Source of the DNA: Acidimicrobiia bacterium
GTDB lineage: Bacteria; Actinomycetota; Acidimicrobiia; Acidimicrobiales; Poriferisodalaceae
Length of the DNA stretch: 64,000 nucleotides
Direction: 5' to 3'
Assembly: GCA_022820925.1 (NCBI GenBank)
Contig: JAJEEO010000003.1
Span: 62,001 to 126,000, forward strand
Shown: positions 13,137 to 58,446 of the stretch, one piece after another
Layout: the number at the start of each line of letters is the position of its first letter
How positions within the stretch are numbered: the stretch's first letter is position 1
Notes under the pieces: generated by a model
Told to the model about the DNA's origin: nothing
Seen by the model: the letters and a program-made list of their open reading frames with translations, nothing else
The model's database searches: none
Position numbers and translations under genes: made by a program

Positions 13137-14735
13137 ATGTCTGACACGGCTGCACCGTCACCCGAGACTGCTGAGGCTCCTCGGCGACGCCGCGGCGGCG
13201 GCCGGGCCGGCCGCATCGCCGTCCGCGAAGCTGCGCCCGAGCGCGATCGCAGGCCAGTTCGCCCCGGCCTGCCCGCGGGACGGTTCAAACCCCTGACCGA
13301 GAACGACATGCAGCAGGTGTACGACACCGCACTCGGACTGCTCGAAGACGTCGGCATGGGCGATCCCCTCGACGAATTCGTCGAGGCGGCGACGCCTGTG
13401 GGCGGGTGGGTCGACGACAACGGACGCATTCACCTGCCTCGCGGCGTCGTGGAGCGAGCCATCGAGACGGCGGCCAAGGAATGGATCTGGCACGGCTTCG
13501 ACGACGACCAGTCGGTGCACGTGGGCGGCGAGCATGTCTATTTCGGCACGTCCGGCGCCGCGGTGATGATGTACGACCACGAGACCGGCACGTTCCGCGA
13601 TTCGCTCGCGCAGGACGTGTACGACTGCGGCCGCTTGGTCGACACGCTCGACAACCTGCACTTCTACGTGCGCACGGTGGTGGCACGCGACATGGTCGAG
13701 ACCCGTGACCTCGACATGACCACGGCATACGCAGTGATGTGCAGCACCACCAAGCCGGGCGGATCGTCGTGGTTCGAGCCGGAGTGGGTGTACGAGTCGG
13801 TCGAGATGTTCGACCTCGTGCTCGGAGGCGAGGGCGAGTTCGCGAAGCGCCCGTTCATCGCGGCCAACAACACGTTCGTCGTGCCGCCGCTGCGCTTTGC
13901 CTACGACTCGGCGAGGTGCCTCGTCGCGCAGGTGCGCACCGGCATGCCCATCAACCTGCTGTCGGCTCTGCAGGCCGGTGCCACTGCGCCTGCGGCGCTC
14001 GCCGGCGCTCTGGCGCAGGCGGTGGCCGAGTGCCTCGGGGGGTTGACCTTCGTGAACCTGCTGTCGCCCGGGCATCCCTGCCTGTTGGGCTTGTGGCCGT
14101 TCGTGTCGGACCTGCGCACGGGTGCCATGAGCGGGGGATCGGGCGAGGAGGGAATCCTCAACGCCGCGGCGGCCGAAGTCGGTCACTGGCTCGGGCTGCC
14201 CACCGGCGTGGCGGCGGGAATGACGGACTCCAAGGTGAACGACGCCCAAGCCGGCTATGAGAAGGGCCTGAACGTCGGGCTGGCTGGCCATGCGGGCGCG
14301 AACATTGTCTATGAGTCGGCGGGGATGCTGGCGAGCCTGCTGGCGTGCTCGTACGAGGCGCTGGTGATCGACAACGACATGCTCGGTGCCATCAACCGCA
14401 CGGTGCGCGGCATCGAGGTGAACGCGGACACGCTGTCGGCTGAGCTCATCGGCGAGGTCATCGCCGGGCCGGGCCACTTCTTGGGCTCGCCGCAGACGCT
14501 CGAGCTCATGGAAACCGAGTACCTCTACCCGCTGGTGTCCAACCGGGACACTCCCGAGGACTGGACCGAGGCGGGCAGCCGGGCCGCGCACGATGTGGCC
14601 CACGACCATGTGGTGGCCACGCTCGAGAGCCACTGGCCGTCGCACATCAGCCCCGCCATTGACGCCGCCGTCCGCGACGCCTTCCCGATCGGCCTGCAGC
14701 CGCAAGGCCCTTCGACTACTGCAGTCGCCTCGTAG
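13137..14735 (+). CDS. MttB-family methyltransferase, non-pyrrolysine (trimethylamine/betaine methyltransferase homolog)
   Basis: This 532-residue TIM-barrel protein is of the trimethylamine methyltransferase family. No in-frame amber codon interrupts it, so it belongs to the non-pyrrolysine branch that includes glycine-betaine methyltransferase MtgB. A basic, low-complexity N-terminus of about 45 residues precedes the domain beginning near F-K-P-L-T. A conserved-looking S-G-G-S-G-E-E-G stretch lies near 340 and M-E-T-E-Y-L-Y-P near the end. Family members move a methyl group from a quaternary amine to a corrinoid protein, but no corrinoid protein or its reductive activator is present here. 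The two dehydrogenase-like demethylases just upstream suggest stepwise demethylation of a methylated amine, with this enzyme removing the first methyl. The substrate is an inference. Confidence 0.85.
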   Translation: MSDTAAPSPETAEAPRRRRGGGRAGRIAVREAAPERDRRPVRPGLPAGRFKPLTENDMQQVYDTALGLLEDVGMGDPLDEFVEAATPVGGWVDDNGRIHLPRGVVERAIETAAKEWIWHGFDDDQSVHVGGEHVYFGTSGAAVMMYDHETGTFRDSLAQDVYDCGRLVDTLDNLHFYVRTVVARDMVETRDLDMTTAYAVMCSTTKPGGSSWFEPEWVYESVEMFDLVLGGEGEFAKRPFIAANNTFVVPPLRFAYDSARCLVAQVRTGMPINLLSALQAGATAPAALAGALAQAVAECLGGLTFVNLLSPGHPCLLGLWPFVSDLRTGAMSGGSGEEGILNAAAAEVGHWLGLPTGVAAGMTDSKVNDAQAGYEKGLNVGLAGHAGANIVYESAGMLASLLACSYEALVIDNDMLGAINRTVRGIEVNADTLSAELIGEVIAGPGHFLGSPQTLELMETEYLYPLVSNRDTPEDWTEAGSRAAHDVAHDHVVATLESHWPSHISPAIDAAVRDAFPIGLQPQGPSTTAVAS

Positions 14736-56585: not shown

Positions 56586-57758
56586 CTAGATGTTGATGCG
56601 GTAGAGCTCGGCTGCGTTGAGGGACATGATGCGCTCGATGTCGTCGCGGGGGATTCCCTCGAGTGCTTTGACTAGGTCGTGGTCGTCGCGGGGGTAGAGG
56701 CAGGTGGGGTGGGGGAAGTCGGTCTCGAACATGAGCGACTGGGCGCCGACGTACTCAAGCGTGGGCCTAACCGTTGAACGCTCGAACCAGAAGCAGCCGT
56801 AGAACTGGCGGCGGAAGTAGTCGGAGGGCAGCATCGAGAGCTCCGCCAACTCGTTCGGCGCCGTCTCCGCCATCTGGTGGTCGAGCACTTCGAGGAAGAA
56901 CGGCAGCCAGCCCACCCCGCTCTCGACCGAGACGAACTTCACGTCCGGAAAGCGCTCGGGCACGCCGGAGTAGATCATGTTGCCGACCACCCGGGCGTTG
57001 CCCATGAACAGGTTCGCCGAGCCCACCGCCAGACGCCGCTCGGGCCCGAACGACGGCCACGGCGCCTTGCCGTAGTAGTCGAGGTTCCCCTTGGAGGAGC
57101 CGATGTGGAAGTTGACCGGCATCGCCAGGTCTGAGCACACCTGCCACACCGGATCCCAGTGGGGCATCGCCATGTCGGGCAGCCCCGCTTCTTCAGGGTT
57201 GGAGCAGGTCACGATGCCGCGCAGGCCGTTGGCGTGACAGCGCTCGATCTCGCGCACCGCTGCGTCGAGGTCCCACCACGGCAGCAACGCCATGCCGAAT
57301 ACCCGCTGACCGCTGGCTTCCTGGAACTCGGCGAGGGCATCGTTGTAGATCTCCACCGAGATGAGCCGCAGGGCGTCGTCGGGCGACTTCAGGAAGTTCT
57401 GGTTGCCGAAGCCGGCCACGTTCGGGTACATGATCTGCGCATCGAGGCCGAGCTCGTCGAGCATGGCAACCCGGGCCTCCGCGTCGTAACTGGCGCGGTG
57501 CACCATCTCGTTGTCGAAGTCGAAGAACACCGTGCCGGTGACCTTCTGACCGTCAGGATCGACGACCGACGAGGCGATCGGCAGCCCAATAGGAATGGCG
57601 TCGTCGAACCACCAGCGGCGCTTGCCGTCGCGCTCAGCCATGCGCGGCACGCGGTCGCGGTACTTCGCGGGTGCCCGCGACGTCCACAGGTCGTATGGCT
57701 CCGACCAGTGGCTGTCGGTGTCGATGATCTTGAGGTCGTCGAGAATCGTGCCGCTCAT
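56586..57758 (-). CDS. Amidohydrolase_2 family (ACMSD-like) hydrolase/decarboxylase
   Basis: This 390-residue TIM-barrel amidohydrolase has I-D-T-D-S-H-W near 12-18 for metal, N-F-H-I-G near 215, S-V-E-S-G-V-G near 270, and M-F-E-T-D-F-P-H near 345 with the catalytic Asp. Family members decarboxylate or hydrolyse aromatic or 2-pyrone-type acids. It is 25 bp downstream of the DsbA-like selenoprotein gene and upstream of the LLM flavoprotein gene, suggesting one catabolic operon. Confidence 0.85.
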   Translation of the reverse strand: MSGTILDDLKIIDTDSHWSEPYDLWTSRAPAKYRDRVPRMAERDGKRRWWFDDAIPIGLPIASSVVDPDGQKVTGTVFFDFDNEMVHRASYDAEARVAMLDELGLDAQIMYPNVAGFGNQNFLKSPDDALRLISVEIYNDALAEFQEASGQRVFGMALLPWWDLDAAVREIERCHANGLRGIVTCSNPEEAGLPDMAMPHWDPVWQVCSDLAMPVNFHIGSSKGNLDYYGKAPWPSFGPERRLAVGSANLFMGNARVVGNMIYSGVPERFPDVKFVSVESGVGWLPFFLEVLDHQMAETAPNELAELSMLPSDYFRRQFYGCFWFERSTVRPTLEYVGAQSLMFETDFPHPTCLYPRDDHDLVKALEGIPRDDIERIMSLNAAELYRINI

Positions 57759-57783: not shown

Positions 57784-58446
57784 TCAGCCGACTGGCGGGA
57801 CGGTGACCGGGCGTTCGCCGAACTCGGGACGCTCGGTGCGGGTCTTCTTCAGCTCCCAGAAGCCGTCGATGTCCATCATGGCCACCATGCCGTCCCACAG
57901 CTTCAGGGCTTCTTCGCCCTTGGGTGCGCGGGTGATCACGGGACCGAAGATGCCCACGCGCTCGCCGTCGCTGCGGTTGAGGGCGATGATCGGCGTGCCG
58001 ACATCGGTGCCCACGAGCACCAAGCCCTCGTCCATGCGGGTGCGGATCTCGGCATCCCACTTCTCGTCCGTGGCTGCCTTGGCGTGCTCGGGATCGATAC
58101 CGAGATCTTCGAGTGCTTTCGCGATGTCGAAGTCGCGGTCACCGTCGTGGTGGATGCGGCTGGCAAAGTCCCAGTACACGCCGAACACGGCGTCATCGCC
58201 CTCGGCGGCCCGGATCGACTCCATCACCCGCAGTTGGCCGTGCGTGCCGACCACTGCGTCGTAGTACGGGCTGTCTGTCGGGGGCTCATTCTTGAAGAGC
58301 AGGCTGATCGGCTGCCACTTCACCTTCAGGTTCCGTTCGGAAGCAACGTCATCGACGACCCACCTGGCCGTCACCCAGCACCAAGGTCAGATGGGGTCTA
58401 CCCAGAACTCGATCTCGGCGGCTTCGGTTCCCGTGTCAGTTGACAT
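57784..58446 (-). CDS. Candidate selenoprotein: DsbA-like, Rv2466c-type mycothiol-dependent reductase with U-P-W-C active site
   Basis: Reading from an ATG at 58444-58446, the frame stays open to 57784 except for one TGA at 58387-58389. Translating it as selenocysteine gives 220 residues. Sec is at 20 and Cys at 23, in F-W-V-D-P-I-U-P-W-C-W. Rv2466c-type DsbA proteins have C-P-W-C with Cys in both positions. The first, nucleophilic Cys attacks disulfides or mycothiol, so Sec falls exactly at the catalytic position. Downstream W-Q-P-I-S-L-L-F-K-N-E, T-D-V-G-T-P and I-F-G-P-V-I match the family. An SECIS-like hairpin follows. Ordinary calling starts at GTG 58374 and loses the active site. Alternatives are a sequencing error or pseudogene, but the intact remainder argues against a pseudogene. 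Confidence 0.82.
58353..58373 (-). promoter_or_regulatory. Candidate bacterial SECIS hairpin
   Basis: In the mRNA, UGACGGCC (58373-58366) pairs with GGUCGUCG (58360-58353) in an 8-bp stem with two G-U pairs. The loop is AGGUG (58365-58361). The loop begins 21 nt after the UGA, and a G occupies its second and third positions. Known bacterial SECIS elements have an apical loop G and lie at about this distance; the E. coli fdhF loop is AGGUCU. Confidence 0.7.
58387..58389 (-). other. Recoded TGA codon, predicted selenocysteine 20
   Basis: TGA replaces the N-terminal Cys codon of a C-P-W-C motif. It is the only in-frame stop in the gene, flanked by well-conserved D-P-I and P-W-C-W. Insertion needs SelA, SelB, SelC and SelD, none of which lie in this window. 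Confidence 0.8.

Follow-up and report, generated by a model that had tools for sequence, protein, structure and literature searches.

Rv2466c, NCgl2339 and NCgl2478 represent a DsbA-Mrx1 group of redox proteins described with a cysteine nucleophile. In Rv2466c itself Cys19 is nucleophilic and Cys22 resolving; the protein acts in the mycothiol pathway and has no oxidase activity (PMC8280269, citing Rosado 2017; this and the other papers are cited here from parts of their text). DsbA-like proteins with selenocysteine (Sec) in a UxxC motif are also known. Nine such sequences, assigned to COG2761, came from the Sargasso Sea (PMC1088965), the GOS data gave the selenoproteins DsbA 1, 2 and 3 (PMC2398784), further surveys report the same class (PMC5029168, PMC1794560, PMC9402790, PMC9312934), and a 2026 review counts 119 selenoprotein families and subfamilies (PMC13188914). 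Here we analyze a gene in a 64,000-nucleotide stretch of Acidimicrobiia DNA (contig JAJEEO010000003.1, positions 62,001 to 126,000; the window, below). It shares with the Rv2466c group its PF22234 match, its fold, the position of its C-P-W-C motif and the resolving Cys, but in place of the nucleophilic Cys it has a UGA followed by a putative Sec insertion sequence (SECIS). With the DsbA-like selenoproteins (Sargasso COG2761, GOS DsbA 1 and the PF01323 'DsbA-like form 1'; PMC1088965, PMC2398784, PMC13188914) it has in common the DsbA superfamily, the UxxC motif and a bacterial SECIS. Our reading, to which we give a probability of about 0.9, is that the gene encodes an Rv2466c-family redox protein of the DsbA superfamily, and that its UGA is decoded as Sec by the organism's own SelA, SelB, SelC and SelD under the direction of the hairpin.

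The internal UGA and its reading frame

The minus strand from 58446 to 57784 holds one open frame, in which codon 20 is the sole internal TGA and the terminal stop is also TGA. Its active-site context is DPI-U-PWC-W. The comparisons below use 109 distinct genes with TGA at this codon and 15 Cys orthologs, which remained after identical genes had been removed (alignment score > 500). The features concerned are as follows.

57784..58446, minus strand: predicted gene of an Rv2466c-like selenoprotein of 220 residues including U20, running from an ATG to the terminal TGA; assigned from PF22234 and the TGA orthologs
58387..58389, minus strand: in-frame TGA, codon 20, predicted Sec in place of the first Cys of the C-P-W-C motif; 109 distinct genes share the TGA, and homologs have TGC or TGT
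58378..58380, minus strand: codon TGC for Cys23, the predicted resolving residue; conserved as Cys in 109 of 109 TGA orthologs, role suggested by Cys22 of Rv2466c
58354..58372, minus strand: putative SECIS hairpin, loop AGGUG, 21 nt from the UGA; identified from bacterial SECIS criteria, covariation and controls
58372..58374, minus strand: internal GTG, start of the standard-code open reading frame (ORF) and of public records P0003 and P0014, from the ORF list and record alignment
57784..57786, minus strand: terminal TGA of the gene, with no SECIS-like hairpin after it by the hairpin criteria

The window protein matches the Rv2466c-like family PF22234 along the whole profile (residues 19-201, profile positions 1-180 of 180; 2.8e-43, 148.6 bits, cut-off 27). 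It has the Rv2466c fold, and Rv2466c is closest to it in both fold and sequence. From the C-P-W/F-C motif typical of Rv2466c it retains P-W-C, the first residue being the UGA-encoded, predicted Sec. FrnE/PF01323 was rejected as the best family: PF01323 scores 35.4 bits, above its own cut-off of 25.6 and far below PF22234, and a PF01323-type U-P-W-C protein from another genome (L071, described at the end) aligns with the window protein across no more than 47 residues surrounding the motif. In the NCBIfam profile search no model attained its cut-off on this protein.

Standard-code gene finding gives a different product, a 196-aa ORF starting at the internal GTG at 58374. The public proteins P0003 (97% identity) and P0014 (94%) start exactly there, with MTARWVV, and record P0032 likewise begins at this position; with the start so placed, the active site is missing from the closest public records examined. 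The records of 97% and 94% identity carry the name Candidatus Poriferisodalis, which is linked to sponges; the organism probably belongs to that group or is closely related to it, and is likely an actinobacterium of marine or sponge-associated habit that is uncultured. Taken at face value, the ORF and the three records suggest that the 196-aa protein is the true product and that the frame upstream, with its UGA, is untranslated. We regard this as extremely improbable. Such a product would have no active site, and the Cys homologs are translated through the codon 20 site. Moreover, Asp(-3) and Pro(-2), both located before the UGA, do not vary in any of the 109 TGA genes although their codons do (for Pro, CCC 54, CCG 29, CCT 20, CCA 6), implying selection on the protein to either side of the UGA. 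Finally, the GTG lies inside the hairpin: Val+5 is encoded by GTG in 106 of the 107 genes that have Val there, as the hairpin requires. The alignment contains a signature of bacterial selenoproteins, an in-frame UGA opposite the Cys of homologs with the protein conserved on both sides.

An initial annotation of this DNA had proposed the same coordinates, ATG start, length and single internal TGA, the U-P-W-C at the family motif and the Rv2466c/DsbA-like assignment, and had stated that ordinary annotation begins downstream and deletes the active site. The frame, the family score and the two public records bear this out.

A bias was also seen in the codon just before the UGA (58390-58392). Where this codon is Ile, it is ATA or ATT in 66 of 79 cases, as against 198 of 1092 Ile codons elsewhere in the same genes, and across the 109 orthologs this codon ends in T, A or C, never in G. 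This is possibly an effect of UGA context on the preceding codon, in statistics that are inflated by relatedness.

The hairpin downstream of the UGA

Published criteria for a bacterial SECIS are a loop of 3-9 nt, a stem of 4-16 bp, a G in the first two loop positions, a spacing of 16-37 nt and an energy of at most -7.5 kcal/mol (PMC13188914). A hairpin passing them follows the UGA in 108 of the 109 TGA genes, with the loop 21 or 22 nt away; that of the window gene has an energy of -10.9 kcal/mol and a spacing of 21. Controls passed far less often: 3 of 73 terminal TGAs, 1 of 15 Cys orthologs and 6 of 69 wider Cys homologs.

Codon choice is also constrained in the hairpin region. Among 55 representatives below 80% identity, codons +5 to +11 (Val-Thr-Ala-Arg-Trp-Val-Val) are synonymously frozen, with an entropy of 8-55% of expectation. 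At most of the remaining 13 invariant positions open to testing, codon entropy is near or above expectation, although it is lowered at Ser+28 (61%), Lys+32 and Asp-3 (69% each) and Val+54 (79%). These frozen bases pair into a 7-9 bp stem, whose loop has G in first or second place with U or G after it. This arrangement of stem and loop G explains why the Arg codon in the hairpin is restricted to CGT (70 genes), AGG (24) and CGG (15), the other three Arg codons never being used. Compared with a null of synonymous resampling, the number of pairs rises from 6.35 to 7.76 of 8, and the energy falls from -7.71 to -12.98 kcal/mol.

Covariation was assessed on 45 distinct rows from the same 55 representatives, with 500 shuffles. 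Pairing is possible in 96.4% of cells, and the score of 0.119 was equalled by 0 of the 500 shuffles; when the alignment was slid by 1-3 columns the score was at most 0.055. Third positions change in a compensatory way: the pair between those of Thr+6 and Val+10 is GC in 35 rows, AU in 4, GU in 2, UA in 2 and CG in 1, with one mismatch. The rows with AGG, 11 of the 45, lack the closing pair 25-29.

Selenium genes, distribution and history

The genome to which the window belongs (3.28 Mb in 19 contigs, 95.6% complete) encodes the machinery that this reading needs. The gene for tRNA-Sec lies at C10:239314 (67 bits, anticodon TCA), selA at C10:251023 and selB at C10:252608, with about 0.4 kb between the latter two; the C-terminal region of SelB gave just one short separate match. 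The selD gene, at C13:426129, has an in-frame TGA of its own in the context SHGAG-U-ACK (L021 1531-1533, G000:C13), followed at 33 nt by a hairpin that passes the SECIS criteria. The Rv2466c-like gene ends in TGA, implying that UGA still means stop in this genome. In a sponge microbiome study, SelA and SelB occurred together in most symbiont bins and were absent from most close references (PMC5649159).

To describe the distribution of the TGA gene we used overlapping collections: a set of 61 relatives, a survey of 395 genomes of the class, and named genomes. Among the relatives, TGA stands at codon 20 in 35 of 61 genomes, including all ten of the ten congeners. A selA match is present in 35 of these 35, and the TGA gene in 0 of the 11 genomes without selA (Fisher 1.8e-5). 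In the class survey (E limit 1e-30), at least 44 of 395 genomes have the TGA gene among the matches listed, and selA is found in 42 of these 44 as against 260 of 395 overall (Fisher 2.1e-6); because the genomes are related, both Fisher values are indicative only. Among the best 80 of 205 confirmed loci in named genomes, 78 have TGA and 2 have TGT, with titles that read Acidimicrobiia, Acidimicrobiales and other, mostly actinobacterial, metagenome-assembled genomes. Thirteen further, weaker matches of the class survey, including two with two TGAs, all encode Cys. A phylum survey covered 396 genomes at E up to 1e-40, and each of its 38 listed matches was read: TGA at codon 20 appeared in no genome outside the class, where TGC or TGT takes its place, weaker matches not having been sought. 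A second TGA in many relatives was considered as a second Sec and rejected, since at the loci inspected this TGA proved to be the terminal stop.

These results also bear on whether selenium is involved at all. The UGA might be read without it, by a near-cognate tRNA for Trp or Cys, or it might reflect a sequencing error or a pseudogene; in favor of this, Sec here is a prediction from sequence. The same TGA nevertheless recurs in 109 distinct genes, opposite TGC or TGT in homologs, the SECIS follows the internal TGA and not the terminal one, and the Sec genes are present. The safeguards named in the initial annotation point the same way: selA, selB, selC and selD were all found, TGA proved commoner than TGC or TGT in other genomes, and the window gene has no other in-frame stop. 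We therefore think selenium-free readthrough, error or pseudogene most improbable, if marginally less so than a start at the internal GTG, and consider Sec insertion at codon 20 very well supported as a prediction.

Some observations weigh against Sec decoding. One of the 109 TGA genes fails the hairpin criteria, and among the five covariation measures the one that counts pairs changed in both partners is weak (37 of 500 shuffles). Folded singly, sequences are no more stable than their shuffles (z 0.18); for the window hairpin z is -1.20, with 26 of 200 shuffles as good. Since folding of single sequences is not significant, the SECIS case is a comparative one; an exception is the gene L080, discussed below, with a single-sequence z of -2.46. 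Two of the 44 TGA genomes in the class survey (G341 and G393) have no selA match; G341 has a tRNA-Sec (77 bits) on the same contig, and G393 is 68% complete and has no clear tRNA-Sec.

The TGA and Cys forms are interleaved in phylogeny. In a careful tree (73 rows, site masked), the distribution of Sec and Cys needs 5 changes, and the starred branches force at least 4; grouping all Sec genes together was rejected (p-AU 7e-5, the bootstrap not being fully settled). In a quick tree of 85 rows, a single supported group unites the 53 Sec genes with 8 of the 15 Cys orthologs, which are nested among them. Rooting is tentative, because in neither tree does the outgroup make up one side of a branch. 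One Sec gain in a Cys-type ancestor, followed by several Sec-to-Cys reversions, is the likely history suggested by these trees. L080, from genome G086, is a Cys gene nested in the Sec group that has kept the full hairpin, in a genome with selA and tRNA-Sec; its hairpin is likely a fossil SECIS.

A separate TGA gene was seen in a distant subgroup. L063 953-1606 (G040:C126) is Rv2466c-like, with 37% identity, and has TGA at the motif DPL-U-PWC-Y. Its genome has selA, and no hairpin in L063 meets the strict SECIS criteria; the gene was left out of the 109 and is possibly an independent Sec gain.

Possible mycothiol chemistry and related loci

The resemblance to Rv2466c suggests how the protein might work. 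SelB would bind the hairpin loop, at its G followed by G or U, and deliver Sec-tRNA(Sec). The selenolate of Sec20 would then attack, as the nucleophile, either a mixed disulfide of mycothiol type or an oxidized substrate, Cys23 would resolve through a Sec-Cys bond, and this bond would be reduced again by a low-molecular-weight thiol. By analogy, we infer that Sec20 is the nucleophile and Cys23 the resolver in a mycothiol-type reduction, and that the product may be an oxidative-stress reductase rather than an oxidase.

Mycothiol synthesis in this host is plausible from its gene content. Two MshC-like genes (G000:C7:190502-191677 and G000:C1:112804-113892) have MshC as their best NCBIfam family, with 408 and 401 bits versus 354 and 341 for CysS. 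The MshC cut-off of 485 is passed by neither gene, nor by any of the 61 relatives, which counts against a mycothiol role. In-frame TGAs in MshC/CysS-like genes of relatives were rejected as Sec, lying outside the gene in L272-L275 and L278; two further flagged genes of this kind (G008 and G002) fall outside that reading.

The protein might instead be a selenoprotein that serves another thiol or substrate, perhaps in connection with neighboring amidohydrolase or CoA-transferase genes. The amidohydrolase gene in the window is as follows.

56586..57758, minus strand: amidohydrolase (PF04909), separated by 25 nt from the predicted selenoprotein gene on its downstream side

Among 80 named loci, 26 have this family next to the selenoprotein gene and on its strand, with gaps of 29-130 nt. 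It was not found in the other 54, some of them short, and 52 of those still have TGA. The MshC scores below cut-off would also suit a different thiol, as would two other PF22234 proteins of the same genome, whose motifs are C-P-F-A and C-P-W-A; lacking the resolving Cys, these paralogs imply that roles differ within the family. Set against this, Rv2466c is the closest relative and MshC the best-scoring family for two genes, and we judge a thiol or substrate other than mycothiol to be the less probable case, though one to be taken seriously. We lean slightly towards a selenol branch of the mycothiol reductase family, in which a single Sec swap in an ancestor of a large Acidimicrobiia group was kept across many genera and lost to Cys several times in genomes that retain Sec genes, leaving one fossil SECIS. 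If so, selenium would be described here in mycothiol redox chemistry for the first time, and a redox family associated with mycothiol would gain a connection to selenium.

How far is this predicted selenoprotein new? One candidate, judged by its description, is GOS 'DsbA 2' (18 sequences), which has UxxC and a weak pfam01323 match and would fit the window family; the available part of its description makes no link to Rv2466c or mycothiol (PMC2398784). The available text of the 2026 review has no mention of mycothiol, nitroreductase, actinobacter or Actinomycetota (PMC13188914), and an Rv2466c-type selenoprotein is named nowhere in the open-access literature searched. The initial annotation had taken the type as undescribed for this lineage. 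That holds for the Rv2466c type as far as our searches reach, but the novelty is lower than first thought because the DsbA-like UxxC class is already catalogued, and GOS 'DsbA 2' may contain the Rv2466c-type member unnamed. The gene would represent a widespread selenoprotein subfamily whose active site is cut off in the public records examined. Its Sec genes, its Cys reversions and the one fossil-like SECIS make up a natural series that renders the costs and benefits of Sec versus Cys testable at one catalytic position.

Two other loci drew attention. An Rfam PYLIS_3 match in the window (14220-14319, 49.1 bits, cut-off 38) lies within an MttB-like ORF; pyrrolysine was rejected there, as the ORF has a single TAG, near its end, and it is probably a non-pyrrolysine paralog. 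In two related genomes, L071 1019-1645 (G021:C66) and L276 (G032:C42) are PF01323 DsbA-type genes with the motif SDYL-U-PWC-W. L276 fails the hairpin criteria and L071 passes them; both probably belong to the known DsbA-like selenoprotein class.
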